Positions 6,211 to 14,860 of a stretch of DNA of 43,510 bases are shown here, in pieces. A program made the translations under genes and the position numbers. The number at the start of each line of letters is the position of its first letter. The stretch's first letter is position 1. This DNA is from a virus. Under the pieces are notes generated by a model that was given only the letters and a program-made list of their open reading frames with translations, did not search any database and was not told the origin of the DNA. The stretch covers positions 1-43,510 of the IMG/VR virus record IMGVR_UViG_3300046557_000335. One strand, given 5' to 3'.

Positions 6211-7419
6211 GTGGAAGACCAGACTCAGGTACTCAGGGATCAGATCAAAGCGATCCTCGAGGGAATGAAAAAGCGCGATACCGAACTCGACACGGTGCTG
6301 CGTAAGTTCGAAGACGAGGCGAAAAAGCGCGGCGACGGCGAAGATGGCACGAAGGAAGCCATCGCGCAGCTGACGACGAAGGGTCAGGAACTGCATGGCC
6401 GAATGCATGACATCGAGCTCAAGGTGGCGGAGAGCGTGAAGGCGGCGACGCCGGCGCGTGATCTCTCGCCGGGCGAGCGACTTGTTGCGGATGCCAAGTT
6501 CAAGGAATATCTGAGCATCGCGAAGAGTGCGGGACGCACGTCGTTCCGCCTTCCGATGAAGACGATCACAAGCATCGCCGGCAGTGCAGGCCAGGGCATC
6601 TGGTCGACGCGATTGCCGGAGGTGATCGAAGAGCCGCTGCGTCCGCTTAGCATCCGAGCATTGCTCGACCAGGGCGGCACGGAGAGCAATCTCATCGAGT
6701 GGGTACGTGAGAACGTGTTCACGAACAACGCCGACGTGGTGTCGGAAGGCCAGATCAAGCCGCAGTCGAACATCACGTACGAGCGCGTGGACGTGCCGGT
6801 TCGCACGCTCGCGCACTGGATCCGCGCTTCGAAGCAAGTGCTCGCCGACTTCAAGATGTTGCAGACGCTCATCAACGGTCGGCTACGTCTCGGCCTGCAA
6901 ATCACGGAAGAGGATCAGATCCTTTTCGGCGATGGCACGGGCGAGAATCTGTTGGGTCTGGTGCCGCAGGCCACGCCCTACAGCACTGGCTTCAACAAGT
7001 CGGGCGACACGATGATTGACACCCTGCGCCACGCCATCTTGCAGGTGCGCCTGGCGTTCTATCCGGCGTCGGGCATCGTTGTCTCGCCGACGGATTGGCA
7101 CGACATCGAGCTGACCAAGGACAGCCAGAACCGCTATCTCATCGCGGCGCCGACGGCACGTACGCCGCCGATGTTGTGGGGCTTGCCGGTGGTGGAATCC
7201 GACGGCATGGGCCATGGCGGCGAATTCCTGGTGGGTGCGTTCCGGCTGGCCGCGACGTTGTTCGATCGCGAGGAGGCGGCGTTGCTGCTGTCGACCGAAG
7301 ATCAGGACAACTTCGTGCGCAACCTGGTGACCATCTTGGCGGAAGAGCGGCTCGCGCTCGCCGTCACGCGTCCGAAGTCGTTCGTACACGGTGCGTTCCC
7401 GGCCGGCGTCACGACCTGA
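6211..7419 (+). CDS. Major capsid protein, HK97 fold
   Basis: A 402-residue phage capsid protein. Residues 1 to about 90 are charged and coiled-coil-like and match the cleavable delta domain. The mature part includes the E-loop and spine-helix style segment RTLAHWIRASKQVLADFKMLQ near 197-217 and the axial-domain style ending with VTILAEERLALAVTRPKSFV. The GTG at 6211 follows the protease stop directly. A strong intrinsic terminator lies 60 bases downstream, as expected for the most heavily expressed head gene. The exact protease cleavage site cannot be set from sequence alone. Confidence 0.93.
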   Translation: MEDQTQVLRDQIKAILEGMKKRDTELDTVLRKFEDEAKKRGDGEDGTKEAIAQLTTKGQELHGRMHDIELKVAESVKAATPARDLSPGERLVADAKFKEYLSIAKSAGRTSFRLPMKTITSIAGSAGQGIWSTRLPEVIEEPLRPLSIRALLDQGGTESNLIEWVRENVFTNNADVVSEGQIKPQSNITYERVDVPVRTLAHWIRASKQVLADFKMLQTLINGRLRLGLQITEEDQILFGDGTGENLLGLVPQATPYSTGFNKSGDTMIDTLRHAILQVRLAFYPASGIVVSPTDWHDIELTKDSQNRYLIAAPTARTPPMLWGLPVVESDGMGHGGEFLVGAFRLAATLFDREEAALLLSTEDQDNFVRNLVTILAEERLALAVTRPKSFVHGAFPAGVTT

Positions 7420-7480
7420 AGTCTGCAAGGGGGCGTTAGCCCCAGGAATCGCGCGGAGGCGGAAGGGCCGCACGATTGGA

Positions 7481-7515
7481 TGGGCCGGTGTGCTAACGTG
7501 CACCGGCCCATTTTT
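7481..7515 (+). terminator. Intrinsic terminator after the capsid gene
   Basis: A perfect 10-base stem, TGGGCCGGTG (7481-7490) with CACCGGCCCA (7501-7510), encloses a 10-base loop and is followed by TTTTT. It separates the capsid gene from the glycosyltransferase island, which would then be expressed at lower level by read-through or from a separate start. Confidence 0.85.
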
Positions 7516-7537: not shown

Positions 7538-7957
7538 ATGTGGGTCCGAGCGCTGAAGACATTCAAGGGGCGGCACGGAAAGATCCGCGCCGGCGAGAAG
7601 TTCAACGCGGAGCCGGGCTACGTCGCGCAACTCGTGCGTAACAAGCTCGTGCAGCCGACCGAGCCGCCAAACCAGGATGCGCCGGGTCCGAAGAAGAATC
7701 GCCGGATCCCAGCGGCGCCGCACGAGAAGGAACAGGACGCTCCCCAGGGAAACGCGGAGGCCGGAGTGAAGCCGGCGAGCGATTCGGCCGAGCCTGGGGC
7801 CGCTGGCAAGGCGATCACGTCTGCATCATTGGGTCGGGACCAAGCCTCCAAACCGACGACGTCGAAGCCGTTAAACGTTGGCGGGCGGGTGGGCAAGCCG
7901 ACACCGCGGCAGAAGAAGAAAGCGGACCGATCTCGAGACCAGCACGCCGCGTCGTAG
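7538..7957 (+). CDS. Small head-region protein; zero-frame product of a candidate frameshift pair
   Basis: The ATG at 7538 has a good GCGGAGG Shine-Dalgarno sequence and lies just after the capsid terminator. Residues 1-45 (MWVRALKTFKGRHGKIRAGE and on) form a compact domain often seen next to phage capsid genes. From about residue 55 the product is low-complexity, rich in Pro, Lys, Ala and Ser. That second half lies opposite real coding in the -1 frame (the start of a DUF115-like domain), so the zero-frame tail after residue 72 may be partly a by-product. The slippery heptamer at 7747-7753 is in register. Function unknown; it may be a minor head protein or a domain delivered to the downstream enzyme. 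Confidence 0.7.
   Translation: MWVRALKTFKGRHGKIRAGEKFNAEPGYVAQLVRNKLVQPTEPPNQDAPGPKKNRRIPAAPHEKEQDAPQGNAEAGVKPASDSAEPGAAGKAITSASLGRDQASKPTTSKPLNVGGRVGKPTPRQKKKADRSRDQHAAS
7747..7776 (+). promoter_or_regulatory. Candidate -1 programmed ribosomal frameshift signal
   Basis: The heptamer G_GGA_AAC (7747-7753) is placed in the exact X_XXY_YYZ register of the gene starting at 7538. Six bases downstream begins a GC stem-loop: GCCGG at 7760-7764 pairs with CCGGC at 7772-7776 around a seven-base loop. A -1 slip puts ribosomes into the frame encoding the DUF115-like domain. That frame opens at 7642 and has no ATG, GTG or TTG before 8026, which lies inside the conserved domain. Confidence 0.55.
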
Positions 7958-8514
7958 TCATCAACACGACGTTCCGCGCCGCTCCATGGGCGGACGTCCT
8001 GTATGCATGCGATGAAGTCTGGTGGTTGCGTTATTTTTCGGACGTAGCCACCGGATTCAAGGGCGAGTGCTGGACGGTATCCGAGGGCGCGCGCGAACGC
8101 TTCGGCCTCAACTGGGTGTTTGGCCGGGATCAACCCGGCCTGAGCTCGCAGCCGGATTCAATCCATACCGGCAAGAGCTCTGGCTACCAGGCAATAGGCC
8201 TGTCATACATCTTCGGGGCGTCGCGCATCATCCTTTTGGGCTATGACTGCCAGGACAGCGGCGGGCGGCGTCACTGGCACGGCGACCATCCTCCAGGACT
8301 GGCGAATGGCGGGGAGGGGCGTTACGGCAAGTGGGCGCGGGAGTTCGCGCGGCTCGCCGTTGGGCTGGCCGGCACGCAATGCAAAGTCTTGAACGCCAGC
8401 CGGCGGACTGCGCTACGATGTTTCCAGCGCGTCACGCTGGAAACCGCACTATATGAAAACGAAAAACGAACTCAGGTCGAGGCATTGGATCAGCTGCGAG
8501 GACCGAAAGCCTGA
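7753..8514 (+). CDS. DUF115/MptE-like putative glycosyltransferase, probably made by -1 frameshift
   Basis: This frame encodes a phage DUF115/MptE-like domain. The nucleotide-binding motif IIGSGPSL lies at about 7837-7860, followed by VVVINTTFRAAPWADVLYACDEVWW, then HTGKSSGYQAIGLSYIFGASRIILLGYD and a closing NASRRTALRCFQRVTLE segment. The frame is open from 7642 but has no standard start codon until a TTG at 8026, which would delete the nucleotide-binding half. The GGGAAAC site would yield a 325-residue fusion with the 7538 product. The alternatives are a non-standard ATT/ATC start or a sequencing indel. A 25-residue low-complexity insertion separates the first motif from the next strand. A paralogue lies at 12459. 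Family members are linked to sugar or nucleotide transfer; the substrate here is unknown. Confidence 0.72.
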   Translation, partial: RGGRSEAGERFGRAWGRWQGDHVCIIGSGPSLQTDDVEAVKRWRAGGQADTAAEEESGPISRPARRVVVINTTFRAAPWADVLYACDEVWWLRYFSDVATGFKGECWTVSEGARERFGLNWVFGRDQPGLSSQPDSIHTGKSSGYQAIGLSYIFGASRIILLGYDCQDSGGRRHWHGDHPPGLANGGEGRYGKWAREFARLAVGLAGTQCKVLNASRRTALRCFQRVTLETALYENEKRTQVEALDQLRGPKA

Positions 8515-9241
8515 GAAAATCCGCAGCGTTTTGATGTGGATCGTCGGCTACGATCCGCCCCGACCTGGCGGCTACGAGGCGGGCGCCGAGGTTGGCATAT
8601 GGAATGACGTTCGGGGCCGTTGGCAGGTATCCGCCGGCGACGAGGATACGGACGTCCAGGTCACCCACTGGATGGAAGTTCCGGATCCGCCGGCGAGCTC
8701 GAGCGACGAGCTGCCACGGCTAAACGCTTTGATGGCCGTCGACCCGTTCGCGGTCGCTCTCGCGTTGGCGATGGGTTATTGCCCGAACTGCGATGCCGAC
8801 GAACTGCACAGCGCCTCGCTCGAGCAAGTCGCAGGCCGCGGCAAGGAAGGCGTTTCGTGCTGTGCATGCAACTGGTCGATCGCCTACGACACATTGAGGG
8901 CTGCGGGTGCTGCGCATCACGAACTCTTGGTCGCAACTCAGGTTGGCCGAGCTGCGGACGTAGGTTCTTTACGTCTCTTCGGCGACGACAGGTCAACGTC
9001 CAAACAATCGATCGAGCTCAAACTGCGCGTCGACGCCCGCGAAGTGATCGCGGCACTCGAGAGAATAAAATCGCATCTCGAGCCGCTATGCGATCCGACG
9101 CCGATTGGATATGTCGCGCGCGAGGTGGCGTCGGGCCACGTCGTTCGTGACTTCGCATTGCCTGGCCAACAGCACGAACTCGCCGAAGGATTCGAGTGGA
9201 TGGCGGTCTATGTGGTCGCAAGATCGGAACAGCGGGGCTAA
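8453..9241 (+). CDS. DUF551-like protein with zinc-ribbon-like cysteines
   Basis: A 262-residue protein. The N-terminal part (about 30-85) fits the DUF551 pattern of phage proteins: WIVGYDPPRPG, then a strand, ending VTHWMEVPDPP. A middle segment holds CPNC (near 106-109) and CCAC (near 135-138), likely a zinc ribbon. The rest is a mixed helix/strand region without a recognised family. The ATG lies inside the end of the DUF115 frame (62-base overlap). Its place among sugar-transfer genes may be incidental, because DUF551 proteins are usually early phage genes. Function unknown. Confidence 0.72.
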   Translation: MKTKNELRSRHWISCEDRKPEKIRSVLMWIVGYDPPRPGGYEAGAEVGIWNDVRGRWQVSAGDEDTDVQVTHWMEVPDPPASSSDELPRLNALMAVDPFAVALALAMGYCPNCDADELHSASLEQVAGRGKEGVSCCACNWSIAYDTLRAAGAAHHELLVATQVGRAADVGSLRLFGDDRSTSKQSIELKLRVDAREVIAALERIKSHLEPLCDPTPIGYVAREVASGHVVRDFALPGQQHELAEGFEWMAVYVVARSEQRG

Positions 9242-9244
9242 GTT

Positions 9245-9496
9245 ATGAGCGTGTACCTGGTGCGCGTCACTCATCAAGACGACGATCCCAAGAGCGCCTG
9301 GTCATACTTTGTTCAAGCTGCGAGCATCGCGAACGCCTGCAAAGGTGCGATCGATGCGCACTGTAAAATCAAAAACGCTGAGTGGGAGGAGGATGATCGG
9401 CTTGACGCCGCCGACTTCGAGGTTACTTTCATCGAAGTGCAGCGTGAAGTCGTGGCATTGGTAGTGGTCGATGAGCCGGCGCCGGGTGGTTCATGA
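9245..9496 (+). CDS. Small acidic protein of unknown function
   Basis: An 83-residue acidic protein (MSVYLVRVTHQDDD start) predicted by eye as beta-alpha-beta with a conserved-looking WSYFVQAASIANACKGAI helix. It starts three bases after the previous stop, and its own stop overlaps the next ATG, so it sits in a coupled chain. Nothing points to a specific activity. Confidence 0.65.
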   Translation: MSVYLVRVTHQDDDPKSAWSYFVQAASIANACKGAIDAHCKIKNAEWEEDDRLDAADFEVTFIEVQREVVALVVVDEPAPGGS

Positions 9497-10116
9497 CGTT
9501 GGCGGTCGAGGGAATTAGTTACCGGGAAGATCTCGAAGCGTGGTGGCCGCTCTATGATCATGCGCCAGTGAAATGCATGCAGTTCGTGCGACGTGGCTTG
9601 CCTGCGATCGATGTCGTCGCAGGCTTATGCAAGCGACGTCGCGAATGCGTGCAGGCCGGCGGGCATGCCGGCTTTTGGCCGAAGTCGCTCGCGAAATATT
9701 TTCAGCACGTCCACACGTTCGAGCCGGAGGCCGCGCTATTCCAATGCATGCGCCTCAACTGTAAGCAGGCGAACGTTGCGATGTATCAGATCGGGTTGGG
9801 CGCGGCGGCCGGTACCGCTCGTTTTCGCTCACATATCAGCGCAGGCAGTTGGCGCGTGGACGATGCCGGCGATCGTGAGATCAGCATGACGACGATCGAC
9901 TCACTCAACCTGACGCGATGCGATGCCATTCTTCTGGATATCGAAGGCCACGAGGTTCACGCACTCGAAGGCGCTCGGCAAACCGTCGATAGATCGTCGC
10001 CGATTATTCTCTGCGAACTCTTGCCGCGATCGCGCGATGCAATCGAGGCCTGGCTGCTCGCCGCCGGATATCGACGGGCGTCGACGTTTGGCCGCGACGG
10101 CGTTTACGCGCGATGA
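9493..10116 (+). CDS. FkbM-family methyltransferase
   Basis: A 207-residue protein matching the FkbM/Methyltransf_21 family of SAM-dependent O-methyltransferases, which often act on sugars or glycans. Visible marks are the glycine motif region AGGHAGFWPKSLAKYF (about 55-70), HTFEPEAALFQCMRLNC with the acidic residue that binds the SAM ribose, AGSWRV, and the characteristic MTTIDSL followed by DAILLDIEGHEVHALEGA. Its neighbours are glycosyltransferase-like genes, which supports glycan O-methylation as its role. ATGA overlaps on both sides imply coupled translation. Confidence 0.82.
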   Translation: MTLAVEGISYREDLEAWWPLYDHAPVKCMQFVRRGLPAIDVVAGLCKRRRECVQAGGHAGFWPKSLAKYFQHVHTFEPEAALFQCMRLNCKQANVAMYQIGLGAAAGTARFRSHISAGSWRVDDAGDREISMTTIDSLNLTRCDAILLDIEGHEVHALEGARQTVDRSSPIILCELLPRSRDAIEAWLLAAGYRRASTFGRDGVYAR

Positions 10117-11261
10117 GAACGCCAGCGACATTGAGTGAAGCAGAGACGCTCGGGCATGCCGCCGGTGGGAGAAGCATCGCGCGGTTCGGCGACGGCGAGT
10201 TGCGCCTGGCCGTCGGTTCCGGTTGCTCGAGCCAGGTCGCAGATAAGGATCTGGCCGCCGAGCTCGTGGGGATTCTCACGCGACCAAGCAACGTGCTGCC
10301 GTGTATCCCAAACTTTCAGAAGACGCCGAACAGAAAGACCTGGGACCGCTACGCCGCGGGCAACTTCGCGCGGCTCTATGCGCTGAAGATCTACGGCAGT
10401 TCGTTTATCACCAGGCCGGACAATGCGCCGTGGATCGATAACGACGAGTACTGGCGATCGGTCGAACGATTGTGGGAAGGCAAGGACGTCGTGCTGGTGT
10501 CGGGCGATTCGAAGAGCTTGCGCGCCGAGCAGATTGCGGAGACGGCGCGATCCGTGCGAGTGGTCACCGGGCCGCGCACGAATGCGTATGCCGTCGTCGA
10601 TAGGCTGGAGGAGGAGATTGCCGCGCCGGCGGGCGTGGTGATTCTCTGTCTCGGCGCGGCCGCCACCGTGCTGGCGGCGCGCCTAGCGCATTGTGGTGTG
10701 CACGCCCTCGACCTGGGCCATATCGGCATGTTTATGCGTCACGCCGGCGCCTTCAGGTTTTCGCGCGATGATTTGGCGAGCGAACTTTTCCGCCGCAGCG
10801 CTCTTCCGTGGAGAAAATTTAGCACGCCGATCGGGGCCGACGAGACCGCGAACACTATTGCCAGTTTCGCCGTGTATCAGCTGGGCGCGACTTCGATTCT
10901 GGACTACGGCGCCGGTTCCGGCTGGCTGGCTCACAATTTTGGCGTGAAATTTCCGTCGGCCGGGCCGCGTGTGATCAACTTCGATCTGCTCGACGAGCTC
11001 ATGCCGAAGCCGGCGGATGTAGTTGTCGGCGTCGACTTGCTGAACTACTGCGAGCCGGACAAGCGCGCGGCCGTATTCCAGCACATGTGTTTGCTCGCGA
11101 AGCGCGGCGTCTATCTCGAGCACTATGACCAATTCGGCCGCATCGCTGAAATTGTGATGCACTACGTACGTGGACAGTCCGAAAAATGGGAAGCACGGAT
11201 CTCCACGGAAACAACAAACAGGCAGAGAATATGGCTCACAAGACGAGGCGGGACGCGCTGA
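10113..11261 (+). CDS. GT-D-fold glycosyltransferase fused to a SAM methyltransferase domain
   Basis: A 382-residue, two-domain protein. Residues 15 to about 215 resemble the GT-D (DUF1792-like) glycosyltransferase fold. They show ARFGDGE with the putative metal/nucleotide-sugar acidic residues at 27-29, the PWIDNDEYW segment and a closing LDLGHIGMF. Residues about 250-375 are a class I methyltransferase with SAM motif LDYGAGSGWL (263-272) and a GVDLLNY motif. One chain could transfer and then methylate a sugar. It overlaps the preceding gene as ATGA and the next methyltransferase by 31 bases. Confidence 0.78.
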   Translation: MRTPATLSEAETLGHAAGGRSIARFGDGELRLAVGSGCSSQVADKDLAAELVGILTRPSNVLPCIPNFQKTPNRKTWDRYAAGNFARLYALKIYGSSFITRPDNAPWIDNDEYWRSVERLWEGKDVVLVSGDSKSLRAEQIAETARSVRVVTGPRTNAYAVVDRLEEEIAAPAGVVILCLGAAATVLAARLAHCGVHALDLGHIGMFMRHAGAFRFSRDDLASELFRRSALPWRKFSTPIGADETANTIASFAVYQLGATSILDYGAGSGWLAHNFGVKFPSAGPRVINFDLLDELMPKPADVVVGVDLLNYCEPDKRAAVFQHMCLLAKRGVYLEHYDQFGRIAEIVMHYVRGQSEKWEARISTETTNRQRIWLTRRGGTR

Positions 11262-11797
11262 TTTCACCGGGGAACGTTGAGCAATACCGACAGCTACACG
11301 CCAGGCCGAAAGGCTTCGGCCGCGACGGCGCCAAGCACGCCATGCAGATCATCGGCTGGGCGTACGAACTCAAAGCGCGGTCGATCCTGGACTACGGCTG
11401 CGGTGCCGGCGCGCTGAAGCCGGAACTCCGGCGGCTCGGTTGGCGCGGCCAGGTTCACGAATACGATCCCGCGGTACCAGGCAAGGAAGGCAGGCCGCCG
11501 GCATGTGATGTAGTTGCGTGCACCGACGTGCTCGAGCACGTCGAAGCGGACAAATTAAACGCAGTGCTGCGCGACATCGAGATCTTGAGTTCGCGCGGCG
11601 CGTACCTGGCGATCGCTACGCGGCCGGCGAATGCTCGGCTACCGGATGGGCGCAACGCTCACCTCATCGTCGAACCGCCGGCGTGGTGGTCGACCAAGCT
11701 CTGGTTCCGCGGCTGGGTAATCAATAACGAAAAGTCGATCGAAGGGCGCGAGGTGTGCTTCTGGCTGCTACCGCCTAATTTTCCGGAGGCGGCATGA
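11231..11797 (+). CDS. Class I SAM-dependent methyltransferase
   Basis: A 188-residue protein with SAM motif LDYGCGAGAL at about 53-62, followed by VHEYDPAVPGKEGRPPACDVVACTDVLEHVE, the acidic and post-motif pattern of small phage methyltransferases. The ATG at 11231 was chosen over an upstream GTG at 11186 because it has a nearby AGGCAGAG and because similar proteins start close to this point. It sits between other methyltransferases in a coupled run. The substrate is unknown; a glycan intermediate is the contextual guess. Confidence 0.8.
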   Translation: MAHKTRRDALISPGNVEQYRQLHARPKGFGRDGAKHAMQIIGWAYELKARSILDYGCGAGALKPELRRLGWRGQVHEYDPAVPGKEGRPPACDVVACTDVLEHVEADKLNAVLRDIEILSSRGAYLAIATRPANARLPDGRNAHLIVEPPAWWSTKLWFRGWVINNEKSIEGREVCFWLLPPNFPEAA

Positions 11798-12462
11798 ACT
11801 TCAAGATCGAAGTCGACGACGACGCATTTCAATACCTGCGCCTGCAGCGGGGAAGCCTGGACAAGTTCGCCGGCGATCGCGGGCTCTGGCACAACCGTTA
11901 CGAGAGCGATTTGCGCCGCAACTTCGAGAACATCGCGCCGTTCCTTCCGGAGCGTTGCTGGGGCATGCTCGATATTGGAAGCGGTCTCGGCGGAATCGAC
12001 GTACTGCTGAGCCGTCATTATTCGTCGAAACAAGCGCCGGTCGATCGCGTGCACAACGGCTGGCCGTACGTCCATCTTCTCGACGGCGTTGACGATCCAC
12101 CCGAAATGAAGCTGCATCGCGAAACCTTCAACAGCATGAAGGTCGCCAAGGATTTCCAGCTGGTGAACGGCTTGCCGTCCGTTCGCTTCGGTTACTTCGC
12201 GCCGAGCAGTCACTTCTTCCCGCGGCCTTACGATCTGGTGCTGAGCTTCGGCAGCTGGTGTTTTCACTACGAGCCGGATATCTATTTGCCGCGCCTGCTG
12301 AGCGCCGGCGGGTTGCACGGTGAATCCGTGGTCATCGTCGACGTGCGCGACAGCAAGACGGAATGGTTCGAACAACTCGAGCGCCGCTTTCAGCGTGTGG
12401 CCACGATCGCGACGAAGCCGAAGTGGACGCGTTGCGTATACCAGCTGCGCACGGATACATGA
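11794..12462 (+). CDS. Class I SAM-dependent methyltransferase-like protein
   Basis: A 222-residue protein with the SAM-binding motif LDIGSGLGGID at about 59-69 and the later DLVLSFGSWCFHYEP segment typical of motif IV/V in phage methyltransferases of this type. It is the third methyltransferase in the island, after the FkbM gene and the one at 11231, or the fourth counting the fused domain. ATGA overlaps occur at both ends. Substrate unknown. Confidence 0.78.
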   Translation: MNFKIEVDDDAFQYLRLQRGSLDKFAGDRGLWHNRYESDLRRNFENIAPFLPERCWGMLDIGSGLGGIDVLLSRHYSSKQAPVDRVHNGWPYVHLLDGVDDPPEMKLHRETFNSMKVAKDFQLVNGLPSVRFGYFAPSSHFFPRPYDLVLSFGSWCFHYEPDIYLPRLLSAGGLHGESVVIVDVRDSKTEWFEQLERRFQRVATIATKPKWTRCVYQLRTDT

Positions 12463-13094
12463 ACGCGGCCGCCGCCGAGCTCGAGCTCACGATCGTCGCC
12501 GGCGGCTGGTCAGTGCGAGCGGTCGACCTGACTCGATTGCGCGGCCAGGTGATCGCAGTCAACGAAGCCGCCGTGCTTTTGCCGCGTTGGGATTACGCGG
12601 TGTCGATGGACCGGCTATGGACCGAGCACCGAATTGACCACGTGATATCGCGCAGCGCCGAGCATCTGCCGCGGCCCGAGATCTGGTTGCGTCGTTCGGC
12701 TGTGCAAAATCTCAACGTTACGAGCTGGCCGTGGGTGAAGGTGTTCGCCTGCGATCATCTGTCGTCGATCTTCACGTCGAAGCCTCTGGCGCTCAACGGT
12801 CGAAATTCGGGATTCTGCGCGCTCAACCTGGCGTGGAAGCTCAGGCCACGTCGGCTCTATTTGCTCGGCTTCGATATGGTGCGATCGCCTAGAGGCGAGA
12901 CCTACTGGCACGAGCCGTATTCGTGGGGTTCACCTACCGGCGGCACCAGCGACGGCAAATACGAGTCCTGGGCCGCTAGCTTCAAAGGTGCGTCGACGTC
13001 GTTCCGCCGTATCTCTTGCGAGGTAATGAACGTCTCGCCGGCGTCGGCGATCGCCGAGTTCAAAAAAATCACTCCGGAGGAGTACTACCGATGA
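12459..13094 (+). CDS. DUF115/MptE-like putative glycosyltransferase, second copy
   Basis: A 211-residue protein with the same architecture as the domain at 7753: TIVAGGWSVRAVDLTRLRG at the nucleotide-binding position, a strand VIAVNEAAVLLPRWDYAVSMDRLW, NGRNSGFCALNLAWKLRPRRLYLLGFDM, and a short closing region. The usual GSGPS loop is replaced by AGGWS, so the binding loop has diverged. It starts ATGA-coupled to the preceding methyltransferase, unlike the first copy, which has no normal start. Probably a sugar- or nucleotide-transferring enzyme; the function is inferred from family and neighbours only. Confidence 0.75.
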   Translation: MNAAAAELELTIVAGGWSVRAVDLTRLRGQVIAVNEAAVLLPRWDYAVSMDRLWTEHRIDHVISRSAEHLPRPEIWLRRSAVQNLNVTSWPWVKVFACDHLSSIFTSKPLALNGRNSGFCALNLAWKLRPRRLYLLGFDMVRSPRGETYWHEPYSWGSPTGGTSDGKYESWAASFKGASTSFRRISCEVMNVSPASAIAEFKKITPEEYYR

Positions 13095-13831
13095 CGGCGC
13101 GACAGTTCACGCTGGTGATGGCCTATTACGAAAACCCGTGCATGCTGGTCGAACAGTTTGCGCACCTTCGCCGACTAGGCGACAACTTGGGTCCCAATCT
13201 ACACGTACGGATCGTCGACGACGGTTCGCCAGAATCGCCGGCCATCGATCAATGCTGCGGAATGTTCACTCGAAACTACGGATTGGGCGGCCTGGGTTCC
13301 TTCGAGACGTGGCGCATGCAAGTCGACGTGCGATGGAACCAGGACGCGTGCCGCAATGTGGGCGTGCGCGAATCGCCGACCGACTGGATCTTGCTCACCG
13401 ACATGGACCATGTAGTACCGCCGGAGACGTGGCGCGCCTTGATGTTGGGCAAGCTGCGCGAGGACACCGTCTATCGCTTCTCGAGGAAGACGGCGCCTGA
13501 GCTCGAGGAGTACAAGCCGCATCCCAACAGCTGGGCGTTGACGAAGGAGATGTACTGGCGGATCGGCGGCTATGACGAAGCGCTCGCCGGCCACTATGGA
13601 ACGGACGGCGACTTCCTCGTGCGTGCTCGACGCGTCGCCGGCGAGCCGGTGCAATTGAAGGAATGGCTGGTGCGCTATCCCCGCGAGGTGATCTCGGACG
13701 CGAGCACGCGCACGCTCGAGCGGAAGACGCCGGAAGACAAGAGCGCGGTGGCGAAGATCATCGCGGCGCGCTCGAGCATCCCGGATTGGGCGCCGATCCA
13801 CTTCAGTTTTCCGTGCGTCAGGGTGCTGTGA
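13091..13831 (+). CDS. GT-A-fold (GT2-like) glycosyltransferase
   Basis: A 246-residue protein with family 2-like features: a first strand QFTLVMAYYENP, RIVDDGSPE near 39-47, the metal-binding DxD in TDMDH (D104, D106), and IGGYDEALAGHYGTDGDFLVRA, which places the catalytic acidic residue. The ATG at 13091 has GGAGG 11-17 bases upstream and overlaps the previous stop as ATGA; the longer frame from 13016 is not needed. It likely uses a nucleotide-sugar donor in the cytoplasm. The acceptor could be a virion protein or a host or phage glycan. Confidence 0.85.
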   Translation: MTARQFTLVMAYYENPCMLVEQFAHLRRLGDNLGPNLHVRIVDDGSPESPAIDQCCGMFTRNYGLGGLGSFETWRMQVDVRWNQDACRNVGVRESPTDWILLTDMDHVVPPETWRALMLGKLREDTVYRFSRKTAPELEEYKPHPNSWALTKEMYWRIGGYDEALAGHYGTDGDFLVRARRVAGEPVQLKEWLVRYPREVISDASTRTLERKTPEDKSAVAKIIAARSSIPDWAPIHFSFPCVRVL

Positions 13832-14538
13832 TGCGCGAGTTCGTGACATTCAAGTGGAAGCCGGATCGAAACTATCGATCGACCTACGGCCCCGAGACTG
13901 TCAACACGCTCAACAGCATGCTCGGCCGCCATTTTCACGCGCCCTTCCGGCTCACCTGCATAACCGACGACCCGGCCGGTATCTCGAGCGAGGTGCGTGT
14001 GCTGCCGCTGTGGCTTGACCACAGCACGCTTCCCAGTCCGCACGGCAACGGCTATCCGTCCTGCTATCGCCGGCTGCGGCTCTTTGGCCATGACGCCGGC
14101 GAGATCATCGGGCCGTCGTTCGTGGTGCTCGACCTGGATACGGTGATCACCGCGGACATCACGGACACCGTCGCAGACAACTGCGACTTCCGAATTTGGG
14201 GAGACACGGCAAAGGGCACGCCATACAACGGAAGTCTCTGGCAACTGCGCGCCGGCGCCAGGCGCAAGGTATGGGACGACTTCGATCCCGTGGAGTCGCC
14301 GCGCAAGTCGCTGGCGTTCGGTTATATCGGTAGCGACCAGGGATGGATCGCCGCTTGTCTCGGTCCGAACGAGCTCAAGTGGGGTACGCGCGATGGTGTA
14401 TATTCCTTTCGAAACCATATCCAGCGGCAGGGCTATTTGCTGCCGGCAAATGCGCGAGTCGTGATCTTCCACGGCGCGGTCGATCCCTGGAGTCCGCAGG
14501 CGCAACGGTTGGGGTGGGTACGCAAGCACTATCGTTGA
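13831..14538 (+). CDS. Putative glycosyltransferase (GT-A fold, DxD)
   Basis: A 235-residue protein with an N-terminal beta-alpha start (REFVTFKWKPDRNY), LTCITDDP, YRRLRLFG and a DxD motif in VVLDLDTVI (D101, D103). The pattern resembles the glycosyltransferase-like proteins next to GT2 genes in many phages. It closes the island; its start overlaps the preceding stop by one base, and the connector gene follows 13 bases later. Metal-dependent sugar transfer is likely. Donor and acceptor are not deducible. Confidence 0.78.
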   Translation: MREFVTFKWKPDRNYRSTYGPETVNTLNSMLGRHFHAPFRLTCITDDPAGISSEVRVLPLWLDHSTLPSPHGNGYPSCYRRLRLFGHDAGEIIGPSFVVLDLDTVITADITDTVADNCDFRIWGDTAKGTPYNGSLWQLRAGARRKVWDDFDPVESPRKSLAFGYIGSDQGWIAACLGPNELKWGTRDGVYSFRNHIQRQGYLLPANARVVIFHGAVDPWSPQAQRLGWVRKHYR

Positions 14539-14551
14539 CGGCGGGCGCGCG

Positions 14552-14860
14552 ATGTACGTGACAACGGAAGAGGCCAAGAAGTACTGCGGCATCTATCACG
14601 CCGAGCGTGACCAGCAGATCGCATTGATGATTGACGCCGCCGAGCGGCACGCGCAGAACTTCCTCGACCACGATCTGAAAGAGTCGACGGTGCCGAGCTC
14701 CAACAGTCCACCGGATCTGGATCTCGAGTTGCTGCCGAACGTGAAGCTCTGCGTGCTCGAGCACATCGCGATGTGGCTGAAAGACCCTGGCGGCAAGCAT
14801 GAAGCCTCACCACAGATTTTGCAGATGTTGCATTTCGAGCGGACCGGCCTGGGCGTATGA
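14552..14860 (+). CDS. Head-tail connector, gp6-like (DNA packaging adaptor)
   Basis: A 102-residue protein resembling the HK97 gp6/phage_connect_1 family: MYVTTEEAKKYCGI with DQQIALMIDAAERHAQNFL, and a central helix LPNVKLCVLEHIAMWL. Such proteins form the ring under the portal that begins the neck. It marks the return of the standard structural order after the glycosyltransferase island. The stop overlaps the next small gene as ATGA. Confidence 0.85.
   Translation: MYVTTEEAKKYCGIYHAERDQQIALMIDAAERHAQNFLDHDLKESTVPSSNSPPDLDLELLPNVKLCVLEHIAMWLKDPGGKHEASPQILQMLHFERTGLGV

Follow-up and report, generated by a model that had tools for sequence, protein, structure and literature searches.

Virion glycosylation and translational frameshifting by phages are each already known. 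Phage-encoded glycosyltransferases have been demonstrated to modify capsid or tail proteins of mycobacteriophages such as Che8, Corndog and Myrna (Freeman et al. 2023, cited in PMC12363180), and frameshifts add a domain to a fraction of a structural-operon protein in the tail chaperone G/GT, the A2 major head protein and the SPP1 and 936 TpeX tail extensions (PMC10885494; PMC6669499). Here we describe a locus in the IMG/VR virus record IMGVR_UViG_3300046557_000335 (positions 1-43,510, the whole 43,510-base stretch, hereafter the window) in which the two may be combined: a glycan-modification module among the late genes of an HK97-type siphovirus, the first enzyme of which would be produced by programmed -1 ribosomal frameshifting. 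As in the mycobacteriophages, the window encodes glycosyltransferases, but modification of capsid or tail proteins is only proposed here, the hosts are different, and the text consulted in PMC12363180 mentions no frameshift fusion. As in the frameshift systems, a slip would extend a fraction of a structural-operon protein, but what is added is a transferase-like enzyme, carried by g1, a small protein encoded after the capsid gene. The literature searched, which covered few subscription papers, yielded no report of a transferase-like enzyme joined by frameshifting to a capsid-adjacent protein, and the PRFect paper (PMC10885494) makes no mention of glycosyl- or sialyltransferases in its main text.

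The proposed junction involves the following features:

6211-7419, + strand: major capsid protein, upstream border of the island (phrog_10 major head protein, 3.9e-71)
7538-7957, + strand: g1, zero-frame product of 139 residues, a small post-capsid protein with an N-terminal domain of about 42 residues followed by a linker (phrog_2616, unknown function, 3.6e-6)
7747-7753, + strand: slippery heptamer G_GGA_AAC in the g1 frame, the inferred -1 frameshift site (in-phase enrichment across homologues)
7753-8514, + strand: DUF115a, a -1-frame open reading frame (ORF) without a start codon (phrog_4603, 3.1e-46)

DUF115a overlaps g1 in the -1 frame. From the upstream stop at 7639 up to the codon at 8026 it offers no ATG, GTG or TTG, so that its conserved motif IIGSGPSL (7825-7848) lies ahead of the first possible start. 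Conceptual translation with a one-base slip at GGGAAAC yields a continuous g1::DUF115a fusion of 325 residues. A preliminary description of this DNA had begun the glycan island at 7538; the gene there (7538-7957) is g1 and not a glycan enzyme, the first DUF115 gene is the startless frame, and its apparent expression as a fusion with a capsid-adjacent protein had been missed. We rejected an assembly error as the source of the startless frame, since the same layout occurs in Pseudomonas phage D3 (with CCCAAAG), in 'Tetraselmis viridis virus' S20 (with CCCTTTG) and in dozens of other records, of uncultured phages or prophages. In the syntenic relatives the heptamer is mostly GGGAAAA or CCCAAAA and precedes the DUF115 homology by some 60-105 nt.

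To place these observations on a wider footing, we compared homologous loci. A scan with the single DUF115a sequence for close relatives gave no match, and a scan with a DUF115a alignment recovered 80 loci, mostly new; pooled with earlier ones they made 85 distinct loci, the window and reference phages included. Taking as startless a frame with no start codon within 60 nt before the motif, DUF115 was startless in 67 of the 85. A canonical X_XXY_YYZ heptamer stood in the phase that a -1 slip needs in 48 of these 67 loci, compared with 9 and 4 in the other two phases; counted as sites, there were 73 in phase versus 11 and 4. When g1 codons were shuffled in the 56 non-redundant loci, 13.7 +/- 3.1 loci were expected to carry an in-phase heptamer and the maximum in 500 shuffles was 23, whereas 38 were observed. 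All these counts use the full canonical set; a subset of 'efficient' heptamers had been picked partly after the sites were viewed and is not relied on. Absence of a start was associated with position: beside the capsid gene 56 of 65 DUF115 frames were startless, and of those located elsewhere 10 of 13 had their own start (56:9 versus 3:10, Fisher p=1.4e-5). Six of the nine capsid-adjacent exceptions are D3-like, where the start is likely to be a chance codon inside g1. In nearly all startless loci DUF115 occupies the -1 frame relative to a g1-like protein, and most conserve a (G)RW.G stretch ahead of the SGPS motif with no start codon before it; it therefore seems that ribosomes already read the -1 frame before they reach any usable start. 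The evidence is good for the startless ORF and the phase-specific slippery sites, as it is for gene content and synteny, and judged on sequence a conserved programmed -1 frameshift very probably yields a g1::glycosyltransferase fusion. In two of the startless loci (L037 and L077) the DUF115 frame is open for >1,000 nt upstream, through overlapping genes in the -1 frame.

The arrangement is also present in well-known phages. D3 (orf6.5/orf7), PMG1, D14Q, U7 and other D3-like phages share with the window the series of capsid gene, small protein, -1-frame phrog_4603 ORF and, further on, head-tail adaptor, with an in-frame CCCAAAG. Unlike the window, they lack the GT-D/MT3/GT2/GT1962 core described below. 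Existing annotations of D3-like phages give the two parts as separate genes, truncate the transferase after its SGPS motif or leave g1 unannotated, and all those examined (D3, Psp6, U7, D14Q and 5399) split or truncate the fusion. The annotated transferase ORFs of phage D3 (L020, 2828-3546) and of loci L118 and L119 begin downstream of the SGPS motif, and g1 is unannotated in the latter two. As a temperate phage in culture, D3 would allow a direct test of the frameshift.

With regard to the enzyme, DUF115a is by profile a member of phrog_4603 with a distant resemblance to PF01973 (DUF115/MptE-like; 2.5e-5, 24.6 bits, below the gathering cut-off of 34.6 bits). Its fold is predicted with confidence (AlphaFold2 mean predicted local distance difference test, pLDDT, 92.5), and the invariant polar residues of the SGPS, N, NSG, GxD and HWHG.H motifs look like an active site. 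The best PDB profile matches were GT42-type sialyltransferase chains and an MptE-type enzyme, none of them significant (E about 0.8-1.4). The PHROG label 'alpha-2,3-sialyltransferase' is not endorsed, as both profile and fold matches to GT42 enzymes are insignificant. The second phrog_4603-like protein of the island, DUF115b, has AGGWSV in place of the SGPSL motif of DUF115a, and in one of these paralogues the donor site may differ or have been lost.

The N-terminal domain of g1 was modelled well over residues 1-40 (AlphaFold2 pLDDT 91-94) and is predicted to resemble the N-terminal domain of ribosomal protein L9. The best Foldseek matches were that domain and YqbF, a Bacillus protein of a phage-like element; the match to the L9 domain had a probability of 1.0 and 34% identity over 44 columns but an E value of 0.07. 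Profile searching gave a single weak match (E 0.5), and a tblastn search of phage records with the domain gave none; small proteins similar to g1 are common in phages. Ribosomal protein L9 restrains slippage, and if the predicted fold is correct g1 could compete with L9 and favour its own frameshift. Binding of g1 to the head is suggested by the place of its gene.

The remaining features of the island and its surroundings are:

7478-7515, + strand: strong terminator-like hairpin followed by a T tract, immediately downstream of the capsid gene, between capsid and island (16-pair stem then TTTTT; RNA fold z -4.7)
8453-9241, + strand: DUF551 protein, a window-specific insertion and not a glycan enzyme (PF04448, 3.2e-9)
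9245-9496, + strand: 83-residue protein of unknown function, an insertion (no family above cut-off)
9493-10116, + strand: FkbM-family methyltransferase (PF05050, 1.8e-12; TIGR01444 above cut-off)
10113-11261, + strand: GT-D glycosyltransferase fused to a class I methyltransferase domain, GT-D::MT (PF08759, 2.5e-25)
11186-11797, + strand: class I methyltransferase, free copy (PF13489, 2.3e-8)
11794-12462, + strand: MT3, putative class I methyltransferase (LDIGSG.GGI motif)
12459-13094, + strand: DUF115b, second phrog_4603-like protein (phrog_4603, 1.6e-21; phrog_2111, 4.7e-7)
13091-13831, + strand: GT2 (GT-A) glycosyltransferase (PF00535 and PF10111 above gathering score)
13831-14538, + strand: phrog_1962 glycosyltransferase, GT1962 (phrog_1962, 1.8e-11)
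14552-14860, + strand: head-tail adaptor Ad1, downstream border (phrog_40, 2.7e-12)

The structural genes follow an HK97-type order, with a ParB/DNA methyltransferase gene, terminase, portal, protease, capsid, island, head-tail adaptor, head closure and tail genes; the first of these is a ParB-like nuclease fused to a DNA methyltransferase (346-1950), upstream of the terminase. Every enzyme class named in the preliminary description was backed by Pfam, PHROG or NCBIfam matches or, for MT3, by a conserved motif, although the genes at 8453-9241 and 9245-9496 fall outside the glycan enzymes. The GT-D domain scored 90 bits against a cut-off of 27, retains the R.GDGE motif found in all 15 aligned sequences and matches the SP_1767 glycosyltransferase family (TIGR03728). 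The FkbM protein passed the cut-offs of both PF05050 and TIGR01444. MT3 had no Pfam, PHROG or NCBIfam match but is 36-60% identical to its counterparts in 14 relatives, in which the motif-I-like LDIGSG.GGI is conserved. For GT1962 the longest ORF begins at 13663, and the ATG at 13831 agrees with the homologues. The genes had been described as an overlapping chain, which holds for most neighbours (about 4 to 100 nt of overlap) except one pair separated by 3 nt. The start of the DUF551 gene overlaps the end of DUF115a, which it follows directly.

When the GT-D::MT protein was used as query, 17 uncultured-phage loci were recovered, and about 15 uncultured phages share the order capsid, g1/DUF115a, GT-D::MT, MT3, DUF115b, GT2, GT1962 and head-tail genes. 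Since the core is syntenic in so many other phages, chance assembly of the island is ruled out, and the module keeps its position between capsid and connector although the capsids diverge to about 50% identity. The placement of a glycan-modification module in the late head region is thus conserved. The set is not unique: related sets are carried by S20, by the P1 genes pmgO, pmgP and pmgQ and by a prophage-like locus of Bradyrhizobium. S20 resembles the window in having, before head closure, the capsid, g1/DUF115a with CCCTTTG, GT-D, a DUF115-like protein, a methyltransferase, GT2, FkbM and phrog_1962, but its GT-D and methyltransferase are separate genes, and gene order and extra genes differ. 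The P1 cluster pmgO-pmgP-ppp-pmgQ likewise unites, as a smaller set, phrog_4603 (pmgO), phrog_2111 (pmgP) and phrog_1962 (pmgQ); it is not beside the capsid gene, pmgO has its own ATG, and GT-D and methyltransferases are lacking there. A bacterial contig of Bradyrhizobium sp. JYMT SZCCT0428 carries the module from GT-D::MT to GT1962 together with a DUF115a that is more distant, with the window's capsid family not detected near that module; it hints at an alphaproteobacterial host range without fixing the host of the window phage. On the window side, FkbM and the two non-enzyme genes are additions, an FkbM gene being found also in S20 and on a metagenome-assembled contig (L104). The DUF551 gene had no match within the first set of related loci, and the island DNA had no similarity match to phage records.

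Taken together, we propose that most ribosomes on g1 would complete the 139-residue product and that a fraction would slip back one base at GGGAAAC (7747-7753) and enter the DUF115a frame. The resulting 325-residue protein would join the capsid-adjacent g1 domain through a flexible linker to a DUF115/MptE/GT42-like transferase, and the g1 domain would dock the enzyme onto some component of the head. Using nucleotide sugars of the host, GT-D, GT2, GT1962 and DUF115b would assemble or lengthen a short glycan, which the methyltransferases would then cap. The DUF115/Maf family is known for protein glycosylation, and SP_1767-family GT-D enzymes are tied to the same process. A virion protein is the most likely acceptor because of the late-head position, the apparent fusion to a post-capsid protein and this link of the GT-D family. 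The window ORFs scanned revealed no gene for sugar-nucleotide synthesis, a polymerase or a flippase, in keeping with enzymes that decorate existing molecules with donors from the host. We infer actual slipping, docking by g1 and the acceptor; the odds that the module decorates virion proteins seem about even, and we give frameshift expression and virion-protein decoration together, as stated, a probability of roughly 0.45. It is improbable, in addition, that the frameshift holds the share of capsid-bound g1 copies bearing an active glycosyltransferase at a constant minority, so that enzyme assembled on the head decorates the virion in situ or travels along with it.

Several observations weigh against this proposal. 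Canonical heptamers are missing from 19 of the 67 startless loci, which may use weaker sites, and Psp6 has the g1/DUF115 layout with no obvious canonical heptamer near the junction. A search for a conserved downstream stem-loop that might act as stimulator found none (fold z +0.5 to -2.4). The loci are related by descent, so the counts are not fully independent, a concern that is lessened, though not removed, by their divergence and by the switch of heptamer type from lineage to lineage. Neither PDB profile nor Foldseek searches gave a significant solved structural relative of DUF115a, and pmgO, pmgP and pmgQ were non-essential for lytic growth of P1 in the laboratory in a CRISPR interference screen (PMC10695390). 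Finally, the terminator-like hairpin before g1 speaks against capsid-level expression of the island and qualifies the earlier view that it is expressed with the head genes. Similar hairpins occupy the same place in S20 and in three other loci (L003, L007 and L009). The hairpin suggests expression of the island at less than capsid level, which would be expected for enzymes.

Phage glycosyltransferases often modify the host surface, and the module might instead act on lipopolysaccharide, O-antigen or capsule, for instance to block superinfection or adsorption to debris; the filing of the phrog_1962 and phrog_1721 families under moron and host takeover agrees with this. The late-head-region position in those relatives that have flanks, the first enzyme's apparent fusion with a capsid-adjacent protein and the lack of flippase, acetyltransferase or sugar-nucleotide genes among the scanned ORFs make host-surface modification rather unlikely. 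It is also conceivable that g1::DUF115a serves head assembly or DNA packaging instead of transferring sugars, with the other enzymes as passengers, since relatives in P1 and P7 are named as morphogenetic genes (pmg, hdm) and D3-like phages keep DUF115a by the capsid without the rest of the core. Such a role appears quite improbable in view of the active-site-like residues of DUF115a and the dispensability of pmgO in P1. The fusion itself would be spurious if DUF115a were translated separately, from a non-canonical start or by re-initiation, with incidental heptamers and an otherwise identical module. The startless loci without a canonical heptamer are compatible with a separate start, as is the GTG or TTG that D3-like loci have 60 nt before the motif. 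However, the excess of in-phase heptamers over both other phases and over codon shuffles and the near-constant -1 register with a g1-like protein argue against it, and initiation at the window's first ATG/GTG/TTG (8026) would remove the SGPS and N50 motifs; we regard it as very unlikely. Modification of virion DNA is least credible of all, because no base-modification pathway was found in the scanned ORFs (no base hydroxymethylase, dUMP-modifying or base-replacement gene, many right-arm ORFs being unannotated) and the enzymes belong to small-molecule or protein-glycan families, even though glycosylated and methylated phage bases exist and the window encodes the ParB/DNA methyltransferase fusion at 346-1950.

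If frameshift expression of a virion-decorating enzyme is correct, a conserved programmed frameshift, similar in kind to that of the tail chaperones, has been overlooked in the structural operon of many tailed phages. It would tie the dose and location of a glycosyltransferase to a capsid-adjacent protein and would offer a direct handle on virion glycosylation outside the mycobacteriophages.

Within the island, the methyltransferase domain fused to GT-D and the free methyltransferase that follows it look like a duplication. Alignments place the free copy (11186-11797) close to the domain fused to GT-D in the relatives, and the stretches 10893-10928 and 11381-11416 of the window are 83% identical. 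The fused copy of the window has diverged and has lost a PDGRNAH stretch that is present in most relatives; locus L003 likewise has a diverged GT-D-fused copy.

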